The translations under genes were made by a program, and so were the position numbers. DNA of 64,000 nucleotides from Campylobacteraceae bacterium (GTDB lineage Bacteria > Campylobacterota > Campylobacteria > Campylobacterales > Sulfurovaceae): the NCBI GenBank assembly GCA_027068975.1, contig JALXFN010000029.1, forward strand, positions 1 through 64,000, written 5' to 3'. This document shows positions 53,520 through 60,746 of this stretch, piece by piece; the stretch's first letter is position 1; every line of letters begins with the position of its first letter. Below the pieces are notes generated by a model. The model searched no databases. It was given only the letters and a program-made list of their open reading frames with translations, and was not told the origin of the DNA.

Positions 53520-53625
53520 AACACTTTAAGTAGGGCAGTTATATTTAGTTTTTGTTATTTTTAGCTATAATCTTTAAAATATGTTTAGCAGTGTTTAAAT
53601 ATAATTCTTTATATTGAGGATAGTA

Positions 53626-55065
53626 ATGGCTTGGCGAACTAAAAAAACAAAGAATGGTTTAGTTTTTGAAGAGTTTGGATGGTATGATATTGAGAGAGCA
53701 AATAAAAAATTAAAACCTAGATTAGAGGGTGGAAAGTTTGCTTCTAATAATCCCATGCCAAATGAAGATGAGCGTACGGATGATGAAAATAGTTATATAG
53801 CAGAAGTCAATCAGTACATTAAACAACTTAATGAGTATGGTTCAAAAAAGGCAATAGAAATAAAAAAAGAGGTTCATGACCTTGTTGAAAAAGTTGAACT
53901 TGAAAATATTAATTTCTCTAAACTCTATAGATTTTTTAAAGAGAAGTCTAGCAGTATAAATGATGCATTTATTTATGAAGAGGAGGAGAATCAAGAGAGA
54001 AGACTTGACCTTCGTAATGAACTCAATACTTTTCGTTTAGCCAATAAGTTAAGTAAGCGTGAGGCTTATTATCCTAAAAGTTATATTTTGCATTTTGCAT
54101 GGATATTTGTATTTATCTTTATAGAAGCACTTATTAATGCCTACTTTTTTGGAGAAGCTTCAAGCTTAGGGCTTCTTGGTGGTGTACTTATAGGATTTGT
54201 TACCTCTTTTTTTAATGTGACATTCTCTACCATAGCTGGTTATGTTTTACGCTATAAAAATCATGTTTCATGGTTTAAAAAGATATTAGGACTTTTTACT
54301 TTTACACTTCTGTTGGCAGCTATCTTTGTGTTGCATCTTTTTATTGCTCATTATCGTGAGATTTTAAGTATCAATCCTCAAGTAGAGATATGGTCTGTTG
54401 TCGAACCTATGTTAAAGCAACCATTTAATTTAAATGATATGGAGACAATTATTTTAATATCTTTAGGGCTTTTAGTGACTCTATTTAGTATTTTTAAAGG
54501 GATGAGTTTAGATGATAGGTATCCTGGATATGGAGCTGTCTATCGTAGATGGAGAGAGAAAGAAGACCAATTTTTAGCTTCTAAAAAACAGGCAAGAAAA
54601 TTGATGCGAGAACTTTACTCTGTCTCATTAAAAAAGTCTGATGAGATGGTGGCAAAACTAAGTAGCTCTAAAAAAGCTTTAGATAATCTTCATTCAGACA
54701 TGAGTGCTTTTCTTAATGCCTATACAAGCTATCATCTTCGAGCCATAGAGGGGGCAAGAACATTGATAAGTACATATAGAAATGGAGCAAGGTTTGTCTA
54801 TGGAGATAGAGTAAGTTTTAATTATAATGACAAACTTTTAGTAGGAGAGGGTGGTTTAATTAGGCTTAACAATAAAGCATTATTGGAGTCACAGCAACTA
54901 CTTGAAGATACTTTAAAAAATGTAAATGGACATATTGAAGAGTTTTATAAAAATCAAAGGCTCTTTGAAAATGAGCTTGATGAGTTAAAAGAGAAATATT
55001 TAAGTCATGAAAGTATAGAAAATATACTCTATCAAGTTAAAAAAAATAGGGAGCTTGAGCTGTGA
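53626..55065 (+). CDS. Four-helix membrane protein with coiled-coil C-terminus, 479 aa
   Basis: The start at 53626 (MAWRTKKTKNGL) follows GAGGAT. The cytoplasmic N-terminal part (~150 residues) is highly charged and helical. Four membrane segments lie at about residues 150-300 (LHFAWIFVFIFIEALINAYF, LLGGVLIGFVTSFFNVTF, LGLFTFTLLLAAIFVLHLF, TIILISLGLLVTLFSIF). The C-terminal ~180 residues are predicted coiled coil around a short YGDRVSFNYNDKLLVGEGG section. The next gene overlaps by four bases. It is probably an envelope complex component; family not recognised. Confidence 0.75.
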   Translation: MAWRTKKTKNGLVFEEFGWYDIERANKKLKPRLEGGKFASNNPMPNEDERTDDENSYIAEVNQYIKQLNEYGSKKAIEIKKEVHDLVEKVELENINFSKLYRFFKEKSSSINDAFIYEEEENQERRLDLRNELNTFRLANKLSKREAYYPKSYILHFAWIFVFIFIEALINAYFFGEASSLGLLGGVLIGFVTSFFNVTFSTIAGYVLRYKNHVSWFKKILGLFTFTLLLAAIFVLHLFIAHYREILSINPQVEIWSVVEPMLKQPFNLNDMETIILISLGLLVTLFSIFKGMSLDDRYPGYGAVYRRWREKEDQFLASKKQARKLMRELYSVSLKKSDEMVAKLSSSKKALDNLHSDMSAFLNAYTSYHLRAIEGARTLISTYRNGARFVYGDRVSFNYNDKLLVGEGGLIRLNNKALLESQQLLEDTLKNVNGHIEEFYKNQRLFENELDELKEKYLSHESIENILYQVKKNRELEL

Positions 55066-55835
55066 CAAGAGAGGATAAAAAGGGTATAGCTATTATTGTT
55101 TCGTTGGTTCTCTTGGGGCTTTCTATATTTTATCTATCATATCAGCTAAAAGCTAAAAAATATAATGTTGATAAAAAATCACTCTGTTCAAAAGATAAAG
55201 TAGTTCAACTAAAGAAGATAGTATTGATTGATAAAAGTGATAAATGGAGCAGTCACAATATAGAAAAAATGCACAGTTGGCTTTCAGAAATACACGAAGG
55301 TGTGGCAATGAACAGTCGTCTAAATATTTTATCTATCTATGGAGATGATGAAAATAAGACAAAGGTAAAAACACTGTTTGATAAGTGTAGCCCTGGTAAC
55401 TATACAGATTGTAATGCACTTTATGAAAATTGTCGTGATATAAAAAATAACTATAACCATGCATTTCAAGAACCTTTGGTTGAAATTACAGAGATGTTAG
55501 CAAAACCAGATGAGTCAAAAACTTCTCCTCTTTTTGAGACTGTAACAGAGATAGTAGACAATATTCAAAGTCAAGAGGCTGAAATTCATATTATAAGTGA
55601 TTTTATGGAAAACGCTTATAAGTTTAATTTTTATAAAGAGGTAGTCTCTGCTGATGAGGCTATTAAGGAGTATGCTCTTCCCCATAGTTCCAAAATTCGT
55701 GTTTATATGCATATTATAGAACGTCGTAAACATCCAAGAGAACTTTTAGATAAAGTTAAGAGTGTATGGAAAGCGTATTTTGAAAAACAGGGGATAACCG
55801 TGGTAAGTGCGAAAAGGTTTTTTATTACAGATTAG
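55062..55835 (+). CDS. Membrane-anchored VWA-like protein, 257 aa
   Basis: The GTG start overlaps the previous stop (GTGA). One membrane helix (GIAIIVSLVLLGLSIFYLSY) anchors an extracytoplasmic domain. This begins VVQLKKIVLIDKSDKWSSHN and later has EIHIISDFMEN, the alternation of a central strand and DxS-like loop seen in von Willebrand A domains. The metal-site motif is degenerate (DKSDK). Several Cys residues (CSPGNYTDCNALYENC) could form disulfides. It is surely a partner of the coupled membrane protein. Confidence 0.72.
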   Translation: MTREDKKGIAIIVSLVLLGLSIFYLSYQLKAKKYNVDKKSLCSKDKVVQLKKIVLIDKSDKWSSHNIEKMHSWLSEIHEGVAMNSRLNILSIYGDDENKTKVKTLFDKCSPGNYTDCNALYENCRDIKNNYNHAFQEPLVEITEMLAKPDESKTSPLFETVTEIVDNIQSQEAEIHIISDFMENAYKFNFYKEVVSADEAIKEYALPHSSKIRVYMHIIERRKHPRELLDKVKSVWKAYFEKQGITVVSAKRFFITD

Positions 55836-56004
55836 CTTTTTTATAAAAAATCATATTAATACATATTAATTATTTTTATTAGCATTTGTAGGGCTTTTAA
55901 CAGAGGATATTAGAAAGTATAGAATAAGATTATTTTTTTTATATATTTCTTTTAAAATACCGTGATTCTTATGTTTTAGAGTATCTATTTGCTATAATAC
56001 CTTC

Positions 56005-56130
56005 ATGAGAGTCATTCATTTTTTCCCTTTTTTTGAGGCTCTCATACGATAACTTTTAATTTTATAAATTTTAACTCTTTCCCTTTTTTTTCTAAATAGA
56101 AACGGTTAAAAGTTATCTTCTCTTTTTTCT
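56005..56130 (+). ncRNA. Candidate small RNA with two UUUCCCUUU-loop hairpins
   Basis: Seven bases after TATAAT (55993-55998), ATGAGAG (56005-56011) pairs with CTCTCAT (56039-56045). GATAACTTTTAA (56048-56059) then pairs perfectly with TTAAAAGTTATC (56106-56117) and is followed by a T-rich run, the form of an intrinsic terminator. Both loops hold TTTCCCTTTTTTT. It could be an independent RNA or the leader of the ATPase gene. Confidence 0.45.
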
Positions 56131-56161
56131 TTTATTTTACAATATACTCATATAGTTTGGT

Positions 56162-56167
56162 TATAAT
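56162..56167 (+). promoter_or_regulatory. Putative AAA ATPase promoter (-10 box)
   Basis: TATAAT lies 30 bases before the TTG start, with GGAGGAG in between. Confidence 0.5.
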
Positions 56168-56197
56168 AGATATAGACTATTTCATGGAGGAGATATA

Positions 56198-57934
56198 TTG
56201 AAACATCTTATTGATTTTATAGAAGCTAAAACAGTTTCTAAAGCTAAAATATTTAAACACCTAAATGCTACTTCACAAGAGGCAAAAATACTTCAATACA
56301 TCTGTCGTCGTTTTGTTAAAGGAATAGAGGAGACAGCTGTCTTAGATATTTTACAAGATAATTTTGAGTATGAGGGCTATGACTATTTAGCTTATCTCTC
56401 TGTCGTTAAAAAACTTATGGATATGGGTTGGATAGTTCAGGTGAGTTTTGGTCAAGTACAAGTACAAGAGGTTTCTCAACTAGAACTTCTCAATACTTCA
56501 GTGGGACCTAGTATGAGTCTCCTTCGTCTTCTTGAAGAGGGTTCATTAGAGATATCTTTACCAGATATAAAGCCTTATACAGACCATTTGGAGTACTTAC
56601 AAGACCAATTTGATGTTATAGACCTTTTACATAAAATGTCTGTTAAAAAACAGGGTTTTTCAGATAGTTCATTAAGTATCGGTCGTCTGAAAAATAAACT
56701 GGTACTTTTAACTCAGCGAATTATAGAGAGACTTAAAATCACTAAAGAGCCAATAGTAGTAGAAGAGTTTTTTAAAGAGAAGAAGTTTGATGAGAGAGAA
56801 CAGAGAATCTTTTTAGCCCTGCTTAAAGAGGAGTACTCTGGAGGAGAAGGGCAGTTTCGTGATATGAATACACTTATAGAACTTATCTCTCTTGATGAGT
56901 ATGATAAAATTCGTAACCGTGCTTTGCTTGAAGATGGCTCTCGCTTGATTTCTGATAAGATTATTGACTATGAAGAGATACTCAATATGTTTGGGGGAAT
57001 TAGCCGTTCTTTTTACTTGCAAGAGGATGTGATGCAGAAGATTATTCACCCAAATAAAAAGAAAAAAGTTACGAAGTTAAAACTGGACAAACTTATAGAA
57101 GAGCAGGAGCTTTTTGAATACTTAAACCCAACTACTGACCTAAGTGATGTGGTACTTCATCCAAAGACCAGAGAAGTACTCAATACTGTCATAAAACAGG
57201 TTGATAAAGATGTTTTTGCAAAGTTAAAGGCTTGGGGTATTAAGAGTAAAAGAAAAGGGATAGATGCCCGTATTATTTTTTATGGAGCTCCTGGAACGGG
57301 TAAGACCATGACAGCTGTCTCTTTGGCTAAAACACTTAAACGTCCTATTTTGAGTTTTGATTGTTCAAAAATTTTATCTATGTATGTTGGTGAGAGTGAA
57401 AAGAATGTTCGTAAGATTTTTGATGAGTTTAAAGCTCTAAGTAAAAAGGCAAAAGTTGACCCTATTTTACTACTTAATGAAGCTGACCAGTTTCTAAGTA
57501 GTAGAACTCAAGGAGCAGGAAGTTCAGCTGATAAAATGCACAATCAGATGCAAAATATTTTTTTAGAGCAGATAGAGCAGTTTGAGGGGATACTTATAGC
57601 AACAACAAACCTACTTGACAACATAGACAAAGCCTTCTCGAGACGCTTTAACTATAAAATAGAGTTTAAAAAACCAGGTAAAAGAGAGAGAAAACGACTT
57701 TGGCATTTTATGTTGCCTGAAAATGCAGATTATGATGAAAAACTAGATGTTGCAGAGCTTTCTAAGTATGAGTTAACAGGTGGACAGATAGACCTTATTA
57801 TAAGAAACACAGCCTATAAAGTAGCCGTTAGAGAGGAGAGTGTCTTTACGTTAGAAGATTTTTTAGAAGAGATAGAAAAAGAGTTAGGTGCTAGTTTTGA
57901 AAGTGAAGGTAAGAGCATGGGGTTTAAAGTTTAA
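56198..57934 (+). CDS. AAA ATPase, 578 aa
   Basis: A TTG start follows the strong site GGAGGAG. The N-terminal ~300 residues are helical and charged, with no recognised domain, and may select substrates. The AAA module begins near residue 340: Walker A GAPGTGKT at ~363-370, pore-like SMYVGESEKNVR, Walker B LLLNEAD with Asn where many have Asp, sensor IATTNLLDNID and an Arg finger at SRRFNYKIEF. It is of the CDC48/spastin-like type with one ATPase domain. A remodelling role is inferred; it stands after a probable small RNA and before a 65-residue gene. Confidence 0.9.
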   Translation: MKHLIDFIEAKTVSKAKIFKHLNATSQEAKILQYICRRFVKGIEETAVLDILQDNFEYEGYDYLAYLSVVKKLMDMGWIVQVSFGQVQVQEVSQLELLNTSVGPSMSLLRLLEEGSLEISLPDIKPYTDHLEYLQDQFDVIDLLHKMSVKKQGFSDSSLSIGRLKNKLVLLTQRIIERLKITKEPIVVEEFFKEKKFDEREQRIFLALLKEEYSGGEGQFRDMNTLIELISLDEYDKIRNRALLEDGSRLISDKIIDYEEILNMFGGISRSFYLQEDVMQKIIHPNKKKKVTKLKLDKLIEEQELFEYLNPTTDLSDVVLHPKTREVLNTVIKQVDKDVFAKLKAWGIKSKRKGIDARIIFYGAPGTGKTMTAVSLAKTLKRPILSFDCSKILSMYVGESEKNVRKIFDEFKALSKKAKVDPILLLNEADQFLSSRTQGAGSSADKMHNQMQNIFLEQIEQFEGILIATTNLLDNIDKAFSRRFNYKIEFKKPGKRERKRLWHFMLPENADYDEKLDVAELSKYELTGGQIDLIIRNTAYKVAVREESVFTLEDFLEEIEKELGASFESEGKSMGFKV

Positions 57935-57937
57935 ACT

Positions 57938-58135
57938 ATGACGATATGGAAATATGAAGAGAAAAACATCGTAAAGTTCTATAAAGAAGACCATGGTGAG
58001 GGTGAGTTTTTAGGTGATTTAGAGGAAGAGGTTATCAAAGAAATGATTTTAGAGGTAAAGCCTGACATTAATATTGTTCAGGCTTATGGAACATTGATTT
58101 ATTTTGGTATGTTACCTATTTTGGTGACAAGATAA
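57938..58135 (+). CDS. Small hypothetical protein, 65 aa
   Basis: The gene starts three bases after the ATPase stop. The product is acidic at the N-terminus (KYEEKNIVKFYKEDHGEGEF) and ends in a hydrophobic strand (YGTLIYFGMLPILVTR). It converges on and overlaps the next gene's end by 20 bases. No family is known. It is probably co-translated with the ATPase. Confidence 0.55.
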   Translation: MTIWKYEEKNIVKFYKEDHGEGEFLGDLEEEVIKEMILEVKPDINIVQAYGTLIYFGMLPILVTR

Positions 58136-58940
58136 AGTAGCTACCAAGAGCAAAAAGAGTAGCTAGAGTTACTCTTTTGATAATGACTCCTATATTATTC
58201 CCTATTTGACATGAGCTACACTGTCTATATTTTTTAGCTTCATATTGTGCATAGAAGAAAAATCCTATCATAAGAGCTATAATGGATGGAAATATGATTT
58301 TATCTATATTGTAAATAGTAGCTATAGTCTCTTTGGAAAAATTGAAAAGAGGGGAAAACAACGATAATCCTATAATTAACAGAAGTTTATCGGTGAAACT
58401 TACAAAGTAATCTTTTTTAGAAAAAGTAGGGCAGACATCGTCCACTGGCATAGGGGTTAACCCATTATCTGCAAGATGGTCAAGCATCTTTTCACGCTCT
58501 TTTTTCTCTAGTTTATCTAGTAGATTTCCTCCAAAAGTATAGTCCATTTTTCTTTGAAGGGTAGAGGCAAGTTTTTTATCAGATATATCTCTATGGTGTA
58601 CTTTACCTTCTCTATCTTCATAAACAATTTTTATATTCTCATCACGCTTAACAGTTATTTCAAGGTCTGGGTAGTACGCTGTACTCTCTTTGGATTCAAA
58701 GCTACCAGACTGAGTAAGAGCTCTAGGGTTAATAAGCTCCCAATACTCTTCACCCTCTTTAATGATAATAATATTGTAAGGGTAGGCTATCTGGATAGCA
58801 GCCATAGCATCCATATTATGCTCTTGCATCGTATCTTTCATATCTTGAAGAATATCCCAGAGTGTTTCATTAAATGTACGTACATCAGTTGAGGTGCTGT
58901 TTATACGTGGGTCGGGGTATACTACTAATTTTTGTACCAT
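58116..58940 (-). CDS. Peptide deformylase-like pseudoenzyme fused to a membrane domain
   Basis: Residues 1-160 align with peptide deformylase: LVVYPDPRI start, motif 1 NMDAMAAIQ with Gln50, and LINPRAL. The catalytic motifs are lost. EGCLS reads ESTAY (Thr87 for the metal-ligand Cys). HEMDH reads RKMDY (Arg130, Lys131, Tyr134 for His, Glu, His). The remaining ~95 residues hold three membrane segments and a CSSC pair (241-244). Normal deformylases are ~170 residues and soluble. This is therefore a membrane-tethered, non-catalytic homologue that may bind nascent-chain or ribosome surfaces; its role is inferred. Confidence 0.85.
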   Translation of the reverse strand: MVQKLVVYPDPRINSTSTDVRTFNETLWDILQDMKDTMQEHNMDAMAAIQIAYPYNIIIIKEGEEYWELINPRALTQSGSFESKESTAYYPDLEITVKRDENIKIVYEDREGKVHHRDISDKKLASTLQRKMDYTFGGNLLDKLEKKEREKMLDHLADNGLTPMPVDDVCPTFSKKDYFVSFTDKLLLIIGLSLFSPLFNFSKETIATIYNIDKIIFPSIIALMIGFFFYAQYEAKKYRQCSSCQIGNNIGVIIKRVTLATLFALGSYFILSPK

Positions 58941-59064
58941 TTGAAACCTTTAAAAATATTTGTGAAAGTTAATAAGCGAACTATTAAAATTTAAAAAATA
59001 TTTTGGGAGGGTAAAAGAGGGTTGGACAAGGATACCCCTTGTCCAAGAATGTTTTGTAAAAGTC

Positions 59065-59226
59065 TTAGTGACTCTTCATAACAACAAGAATCATCTTGAT
59101 GTTGATGTGTACAAATCTGATAAATTGCCAGATTACACAAGTTCTAAAAAACTTTACCATTGGAGTTGGTACCATGGTTGTAAAGTTTTGGTCATATGGT
59201 TTAATTACATCTTCAAGTTTTTGCAT
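59065..59226 (-). CDS. Small basic/hydrophobic protein downstream of the SQR-like gene, 53 aa
   Basis: A clean frame with AAGGAATAA ahead of the ATG lies 53 bases after the SQR-like stop on the same strand. The product starts MQKLEDVIKPYDQNFTTMV. It continues with a basic aromatic helix (KFFRTCVIWQFIRFVHINIK) and ends MKSH. The balance of charge and hydrophobic residues fits a small membrane-associated subunit. It was not called by length-based methods. Operon position suggests it assists the flavoprotein. Confidence 0.65.
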   Translation of the reverse strand: MQKLEDVIKPYDQNFTTMVPTPMVKFFRTCVIWQFIRFVHINIKMILVVMKSH

Positions 59227-59279: not shown

Positions 59280-60746
59280 TTACTCAGGAATTAAAGTCCA
59301 ACCTGGCTTAAGTTTTGCTTTGTAGATAAACAGGTGGTGTAATACATGTTTAATCCAGTGTCCAGCAAGACCAATTTCACCAAAGGTATAACCAAGGTCT
59401 CTTCCTAATCCTGGATATTTTTCAAAGTCAGGAACAACAGGGTAAACAGTAAGTGCTGCCGCAGTACCATCAGTTAACCCTTTACCAGCTGAAGCAACAC
59501 ATGCTGCACCCATTTCAGCCATAGAAGCTTTATGAAGTTCAGCATTTGGGTCTTTAATAAGGTCACAAATAGAGTGAGCAACTGTTTTACCAATAATACC
59601 TGAAGGCATACCTGTTCTAGGTGGTGTAGGGAAAATTGGTGTTCCAGCAGGAGAACTCATTGGTTTAGAGATTGGGTGTGGAGGAGCAAATGCAATACCA
59701 CAAGCAAACATATTTGGATAGTCAGGGTTTTGGTATGTAGAAGGCCAATCAGATGCTTTCCAGTTTGCATAGTCACCAGCATCATATTTTGCATCAACTT
59801 TCATAAATCCATTTGGTGCGAAAATTTTATCTGTCATGTCTGAACCATCTTTTGCAACAGCAGTTAGACCAACACCAGCAAATGGTGGGATAAGCATTGC
59901 AAAGTCAAACTCCTCTTCACCAGTTGAACCATCAAGAAGTTCATACTCTAATTTTCCAGCTTCTACTTTAGAAACGTGAGCCCCAATTAACCATGGAATA
60001 TTTCTTTCAGAGTATAGCGATTCTGCAAACAGTCTTGAAGATGCAGCATAACCACCACGGTTCATATGAAGACCACCAATTCCGAAGTCACCAAGGAAAG
60101 ACTCATTTGAAATCCACTTGATATCTAGCATGTCTCTTACACCAGCTTTTTTAGCTTCATGTTCGATGTTAAAGATGTACTCAAATGCAGCACCTTGACA
60201 AGTACACATACCATGACCTGTACCTACAACAATCTTCTGTCTCTCTCCAGCTTTAGCTTTGTCAAATACTTTTCTAAGCTCTTCATTAGCGTGAACAGCA
60301 TGGTCAGCTGTACATACTGAAACAGTATGCTCACCAAGAGTTGTACCCTCACCAAGACCTGGAGTTGCACCAAAGTTTAGTTTTGGACCAGTTGCATTGA
60401 TAAGGTAGTCATATTCAACCTCTTCTGTCTCACCAGCAGTGTCCTCTTTTGTAGACTCTATAGTAATGTATGGAGTATCACTATCAGCATTTCCTTCTGG
60501 GTGAATTGAAATAGCTTTCGCTTGTTTAAAGTCAATTCCGGCTTTTTTATAAACTGGTGCTAAAGGAAATACCACATCCTCTTTTGTCATTTGACCAACA
60601 CCAACCCAAATGTTTGATGGAATCCAATTCCAGTTACTATTAGGTGTTACCACAATTACTTCGTGATCTTTTCCTAGCCATTTTTTTGCAAATGTTGCTG
60701 CTGTATGTCCAGATACACCACCACCCATTATTACTACTTTTGCCAT
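59280..60746 (-). CDS. sqr: Sulfide:quinone oxidoreductase-like flavoprotein
   Basis: The 488-residue protein has the FAD-binding start KVVIMGGGVSGHTAA and the second Rossmann segment ATGPKL. The three Cys of the SQR catalytic scheme are present: Cys145 (VSVCTADHA), Cys181 or Cys183 (GMCTCQGAAFEY) and Cys349 (NMFACGIAFAPP). A C-terminal amphipathic region (IKHVLHHLFIYKAKLKPGW) fits membrane attachment. The extra length against ~430-residue SQRs lies in inserts. The SQR subtype cannot be told. Sulfide oxidation to polysulfide with transfer to quinone is expected. Confidence 0.88.
   Translation of the reverse strand: MAKVVIMGGGVSGHTAATFAKKWLGKDHEVIVVTPNSNWNWIPSNIWVGVGQMTKEDVVFPLAPVYKKAGIDFKQAKAISIHPEGNADSDTPYITIESTKEDTAGETEEVEYDYLINATGPKLNFGATPGLGEGTTLGEHTVSVCTADHAVHANEELRKVFDKAKAGERQKIVVGTGHGMCTCQGAAFEYIFNIEHEAKKAGVRDMLDIKWISNESFLGDFGIGGLHMNRGGYAASSRLFAESLYSERNIPWLIGAHVSKVEAGKLEYELLDGSTGEEEFDFAMLIPPFAGVGLTAVAKDGSDMTDKIFAPNGFMKVDAKYDAGDYANWKASDWPSTYQNPDYPNMFACGIAFAPPHPISKPMSSPAGTPIFPTPPRTGMPSGIIGKTVAHSICDLIKDPNAELHKASMAEMGAACVASAGKGLTDGTAAALTVYPVVPDFEKYPGLGRDLGYTFGEIGLAGHWIKHVLHHLFIYKAKLKPGWTLIPE

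Follow-up and report, generated by a model that had tools for sequence, protein, structure and literature searches.

A metal-free deformylase fold with a membrane tail encoded beside sulfide:quinone oxidoreductase in Campylobacterales

What might a peptide deformylase homologue be doing once it has lost its metal ligands and gained a membrane tail? A gene for such a protein, here called PDFL, lies in the 64,000-nucleotide stretch of DNA analysed here (the window). We examined its sequence, predicted structure, relatives and gene neighbourhood, and conclude that its partner is probably to be sought in sulfide oxidation. Literature searches on deformylase together with sulfide oxidisers, hydrosulfide or pseudoenzymes returned nothing relevant to PDFL, and a search for a small protein associated with sulfide:quinone oxidoreductase (SQR) was equally unproductive. 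The formyl-THF deformylase in a paper on Aquifex (PMC10052474) is an unrelated enzyme.

A deformylase-like domain without the metal site

58116..58940, minus strand: PDFL, a pseudo-deformylase (aa 1–155) followed by a membrane tail (aa 160–274); from the open reading frame, profile, alignment and model
58494..58934, minus strand: deformylase-fold domain of PDFL; from the Pfam match coordinates and alignment

The PDFL reading frame runs from an ATG at 58940 to 58116 on the minus strand and encodes 274 aa. Residues 3–149 match the Pfam Pep_deformylase profile (5.5e-25; 88.2 bits against a gathering cut-off of 22.8), and the protein scores under the NCBIfam deformylase equivalog cut-off (TIGR00079; 61.5 vs 103.95 bits). 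In the alignment with Escherichia coli PDF, Cys90 is replaced by T87, His132 by R130, Glu133 by K131 and His136 by Y134; that is, the metal-binding Cys and both His (T87, R130 and Y134 in PDFL) as well as the catalytic Glu of HExxH (K131) are absent. Gln50 is retained, as are E85, R99 and D133. Both the four replacements and the overall similarity to deformylases, Gln50 included, had been pointed out in an earlier sequence-only reading of this DNA, and the alignment and the Pfam match bear them out.

The AlphaFold model (pLDDT 76, pTM 0.56; moderate confidence) combines a core resembling deformylase with three long helices, and a Foldseek search of the PDB with this model retrieved deformylases as the top matches (1xen at 2.7e-10), in agreement with the fold expected from the earlier reading. 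None of the PADLOC models matches PDFL. That reading had also asked for a check on a separate, active def gene; the source genome holds two further def genes, on contigs C88 and C41, both with intact EGCLS and HExDH motifs; the former stands in a tig-clpP-def neighbourhood. The C41 def (L001:574-2019) shares one open frame of 481 codons with TatD-like sequence, which may be a natural fusion or a case of overlapping genes.

It is well supported that PDFL is a pseudo-deformylase, a membrane-tethered deformylase fold whose metal centre has been lost. With that centre gone, the domain is predicted to be unable to deformylate by the known chemistry.

Conservation and phylogeny of the PDFL family

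The family sample comprised 121 relatives, all distinct and full-length, drawn from eight families in a single order, Campylobacterales, the titled members being Sulfurovum and other Campylobacterota MAGs. The profile scan was confined to this phylum; in a draw of 397 genomes, for which the share of other orders is not given, PDFL occurred only in Campylobacterales among the matches listed. Neither the catalytic Glu nor the second His is present in any member (0/121 in both cases). The position of the first His is occupied by Arg in 101 sequences, Gln in 18 and His in two, and that of the Cys ligand by Thr, Ser or Asp in 115, Cys in five and Asn in one. The full ligand set is kept by none of the 121, and members with two or more of the canonical four owe this to isolated reversions. 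The substitutions are fixed among the orthologues, a point that the earlier reading had wanted checked. Every sequence has E85, R99 and D133, and R21, like F23, is found in 120/121, which argues that the domain is constrained for something other than deformylation. Pairwise dN/dS values are about 0.06–0.2 for pairs with unsaturated synonymous sites, and the family is under purifying selection.

In the phylogenetic tree all PDFL sequences form one clade, separate from 31 canonical deformylases of the same order and from E. coli PDF, and the clade persists when the ligand columns are removed (support 0.67). The family can be accounted for by a single duplication, a single loss of the metal site and a single fusion. 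Two apparent relatives were rejected: L060 has the EGCLS and HExDH motifs of a canonical deformylase, and L107 (genome G098), which resembled a decayed PDFL, is likewise a canonical def and was taken out of the neighbourhood counts. A separate def gene is present in most of the PDFL genomes examined. In one genome (G185, 82% complete) PDFL was seen with no other def, and in another (G187) the second match contains a stop.

The membrane tail and its cysteines

58119..58466, minus strand: PDFL tail with three helices, C170 and C241-x-x-C244-Q245; from the model, hydrophobicity and alignment

Hydrophobicity of PDFL peaks near residues 186–195, 214–226 and 258–263, and the model places helices at 175–193, 203–237 and 246–271. 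The CSSC motif corresponds to C241–C244 and lies between the second and third helices, and C170 precedes the first; the three membrane segments and the CSSC pair of the sequence-only reading are thus confirmed. That reading had passed over the constancy of this pair, as well as the small gene described below: C241 and C244 are invariant in the 121 tails, Q245 is found in 118 and C170 in 110. By the positive-inside rule, the deformylase-like domain, C170 and the C241–C244 pair would lie at the surface of the membrane that faces the cytoplasm. A stand-alone tail of this type was sought and none was found, the tail always occurring with the deformylase-like domain. Residues 61–87 of the tail, over the CxxC, are hit by the profile of FeoB-associated Cys-rich membrane proteins (PF12669) with an E-value of 0.047 and 14.4 bits, against a curated cut-off of 27.

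Linkage to sulfide:quinone oxidoreductase

59280..60746, minus strand: SQR homologue of 488 aa with three Cys conserved with Aquifex SQR; best PDB match 3hyv (1.2e-42)

Judging from its similarity and its three cysteines, the gene at 59280..60746 (minus strand) is predicted to encode an SQR. C145, C183 and C416 are present in 116/116 orthologues, which share one more invariant Cys. The gene lies directly upstream of PDFL on the same strand at 100 of 117 loci in eight families, the 117 being the PDFL loci with room for a neighbour, L107 left out. By family the counts are 73/78 (f1), 3/3 (f4), 2/9 (f6), 1/1 (f8), 10/15 (f16), 1/1 (f17), 9/9 (f18) and 1/1 (f22). SQR is the sole PDFL neighbour common to all families; rplM-rpsI, a solute-binding protein, a HAD hydrolase, oxoacid oxidoreductase subunits and an exonuclease are each restricted to one family or nearly so, rplM-rpsI being found downstream of PDFL, on the opposite strand, in Sulfurovaceae only. 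The 17/117 loci away from SQR, in varied settings, include most of those of f6, the genus g11 and second copies in f16. Four of the f16 loci (L133, L135, L139 and L142) hold such second copies, and the same genomes also carry an sqr-linked one.

Within the window, PDFL is flanked on the other side by genes on the opposite strand (53614–57934, plus strand) for three proteins of 483, 257 and 578 aa; the first is a membrane protein, and the third an AAA+ ATPase that matches the PADLOC IetA (5e-34) and TRIP13 models.

In an order-wide draw, this SQR was also present in 93 of the 95 genomes with PDFL, the remaining two being 57% and 80% complete, a co-occurrence whose test ignores shared ancestry, which confounds the association. 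The same SQR was found without PDFL in 64 genomes and hence does not need it. In the SQR tree, the proteins from PDFL genomes fall inside a crown group (node support 0.03), alongside those of PDFL-less genomes. In some of the latter, sqr, the small gene and rpsI-rplM are all in place and only PDFL is missing from the arrangement, a picture that suggests clean loss. PDFL is thus linked to SQR and co-occurs with it at the genome level, and the two proteins may also associate physically.

The order sqr, small gene, PDFL recurs on a plasmid of Sulfurovum mangrovi (NZ_CP087125.1), where the three are annotated as an FAD oxidoreductase, a 53-aa hypothetical protein and a 'peptide deformylase'. PDFL of this plasmid (L190:8001-8816) contains stops in the deposited sequence and is annotated as two 'peptide deformylase' genes.

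An overlooked small gene between sqr and PDFL

59065..59226, minus strand: unannotated 53-aa protein MQKLEDVIKPYDQNFTTMVPTPMVKFFRTCVIWQFIRFVHINIKMILVVMKSH with a Cys at C30; homologues at sqr-PDFL gaps and behind other SQR genes
59022..59046, minus strand: terminator-like hairpin downstream of the small gene and upstream of PDFL, with an 11-pair stem and an imperfect T run CCCTCTTTTA; identified by consensus match only

The small gene was recognised because the plasmid annotation listed a 53-aa hypothetical protein at the equivalent position. In the window it is preceded by a ribosome-binding-like AAAGGAA. Most sqr-PDFL gaps measure 220–375 bp. A homologue is encoded in 101/101 gaps, a count in which the window's own gap figures twice (window and L003). 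These homologues follow the pattern RTC..Q..RF..IN.KM..VV.KSH. Between the window and its nearest relative there are one, zero and six differences at the first, second and third codon positions, respectively, and pN is far below pS. The protein is modelled as one long helix (residues 21–52) and has no match in Pfam, NCBIfam or the PDB. Due to the terminator-like hairpin at 59022..59046, a single transcript across the small gene and PDFL is not assured.

The small gene also stands behind 38/39 further SQR genes, including those of PDFL-less genomes with an SQR only 54–55% identical; in this set the most distant small proteins are without the C-terminal KSH, and one member has Asn in place of the Cys. 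Since the small gene is found there without PDFL, SQR and the small protein would be the core and PDFL a later accessory; it appears that the ancestral unit was sqr plus the small gene, and that PDFL joined later and was sometimes lost. At two loci (L100 and L135) the small gene directly precedes PDFL and SQR is absent; at L100, transposase-like ORFs, as read from the sequence, lie just upstream and coincide with the missing SQR. At four loci (L217, L218, L225 and L226) there is a second SQR copy of greater divergence, and the small protein encoded behind it is a variant whose C-terminus differs and lacks KSH. Across Campylobacterales the small protein generally accompanies SQR, and its distribution is wider than that of PDFL.

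Proposed role and alternative explanations

SQR makes sulfane sulfur from sulfide. To our knowledge, it is not settled where the sulfur that leaves SQR goes in vent and sediment chemolithotrophs. With an invariant thiol pair in PDFL and a partner enzyme that makes sulfane sulfur, the simplest account is that PDFL serves as a thiol/persulfide accessory of SQR. We consider it fairly probable that PDFL is a metal-free deformylase fold recruited as a dispensable membrane accessory of one SQR clade and engaged in sulfur or disulfide thiol chemistry. A deformylase gene would have been duplicated in Campylobacterales and its product would have lost the metal centre once; the PDFL ancestor would then have gained the three-helix tail with its invariant C-x-x-C-Q and been recruited to one SQR clade, where SQR and the ~53-aa protein would form the core unit and PDFL a dispensable addition. 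In the membrane, the deformylase fold, C170, C241 and C244 would face the cytoplasm, the fold most likely acting now as a binding or docking module. The CxxC could join the thiol chemistry of sulfide oxidation by taking up sulfane sulfur or polysulfide or, alternatively, might reset disulfides or trisulfides of SQR or of the small protein. Taken by itself, the sulfur chemistry is the weakest step, and we regard it as possible but rather doubtful.

The sequence-only reading had suggested that a dead deformylase fold at the membrane binds formyl-Met ends or ribosome exit sites without cleaving them. The dead fold at the membrane is well supported; for the binding, nothing beyond the fold speaks, as the metal centre is gone, and no translation gene is shared as a PDFL neighbour across families, sqr preceding PDFL instead. 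A broader form, in which the fold binds nascent N-termini without cleavage as a membrane co-translational or quality-control factor, be it for proteins in general or with SQR or the small membrane protein as its dedicated client, is in our opinion unlikely. It would account for the retained fold and Gln50, the membrane tail and, in its dedicated version, the linkage to sqr, and rplM-rpsI downstream of PDFL in Sulfurovaceae is in line with it. However, the formyl/metal site is lost in 121/121 sequences, the ribosomal genes are neighbours in one family only and on the opposite strand, and the invariant CxxC is left unexplained.

PDFL might also be a general membrane thiol or redox protein, handling disulfides or binding a metal or Fe-S centre through C170 and the CxxC, with uses beyond sulfide oxidation, and the sqr linkage would then reflect only frequent co-regulation. 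The invariance of CxxCQ, the frequent C170, the unlinked copies in varied settings, the second copies in f16 and the weak match to the FeoB-associated Cys-rich profile over the CxxC (0.047, under the cut-off) all fit such a role, but this SQR is present in nearly all PDFL genomes and the linkage to sqr holds across eight families while the other neighbours change, which makes the role quite unlikely. We find it highly improbable that PDFL is still an enzyme, whether deformylase or hydrolase, that uses a different metal site or a metal-independent mechanism. Polar residues around the former metal site are conserved (E85, R99, R130 and D133), and deformylases have been crystallised with hydrosulfide at the metal (titles of PDB entries 4al2 and 4az4), so that doing without the metal could be sensible where sulfide is present; against this, the catalytic Glu is found in 0/121 sequences, more than one canonical residue appears solely by isolated reversion, and a separate def is kept in most PDFL genomes.

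Extending the thiol/persulfide accessory reading to the whole locus, we tentatively entertain, as a somewhat unlikely possibility, that Campylobacterales SQR works as a multi-protein membrane system made up of SQR, a ~53-aa Cys-bearing subunit and a deformylase fold serving as persulfide/polysulfide carrier or redox partner that handles SQR sulfur on the cytoplasmic side. In vent and sediment chemolithotrophs, PDFL and the 53-aa protein are candidates for new parts of the sulfide-oxidation machinery, and both genes can be tested in culturable Campylobacterales. PDFL, fixed across the order as a pseudo-deformylase, carries the plain annotation 'peptide deformylase', for example on the S. mangrovi plasmid.

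Comparison with known systems

The tail of PDFL resembles FeoB-associated Cys-rich membrane proteins (PF12669) in having a membrane helix followed by a Cys pair, but it stays below the cut-off and no FeoB is encoded nearby; the likeness is probably due to chance or convergence. With peptide deformylase (Def; PF01327, TIGR00079) PDFL shares fold and sequence over 150 residues, including the equivalents of Gln50, E88, R102 and D135. It differs from this enzyme in the replacement of the Cys, both His and the Glu across the whole family, in the fusion to a three-helix membrane tail with a CxxC, and in its surroundings, the genes around it being concerned with sulfide oxidation. The SQR of the window aligns with the Aquifex-like SQR (PDB 3hyv) over 420 residues and keeps the three cysteines, whereas behind Campylobacterales SQR genes there is a gene for a helical protein of ~53 aa, to which one clade adds PDFL.
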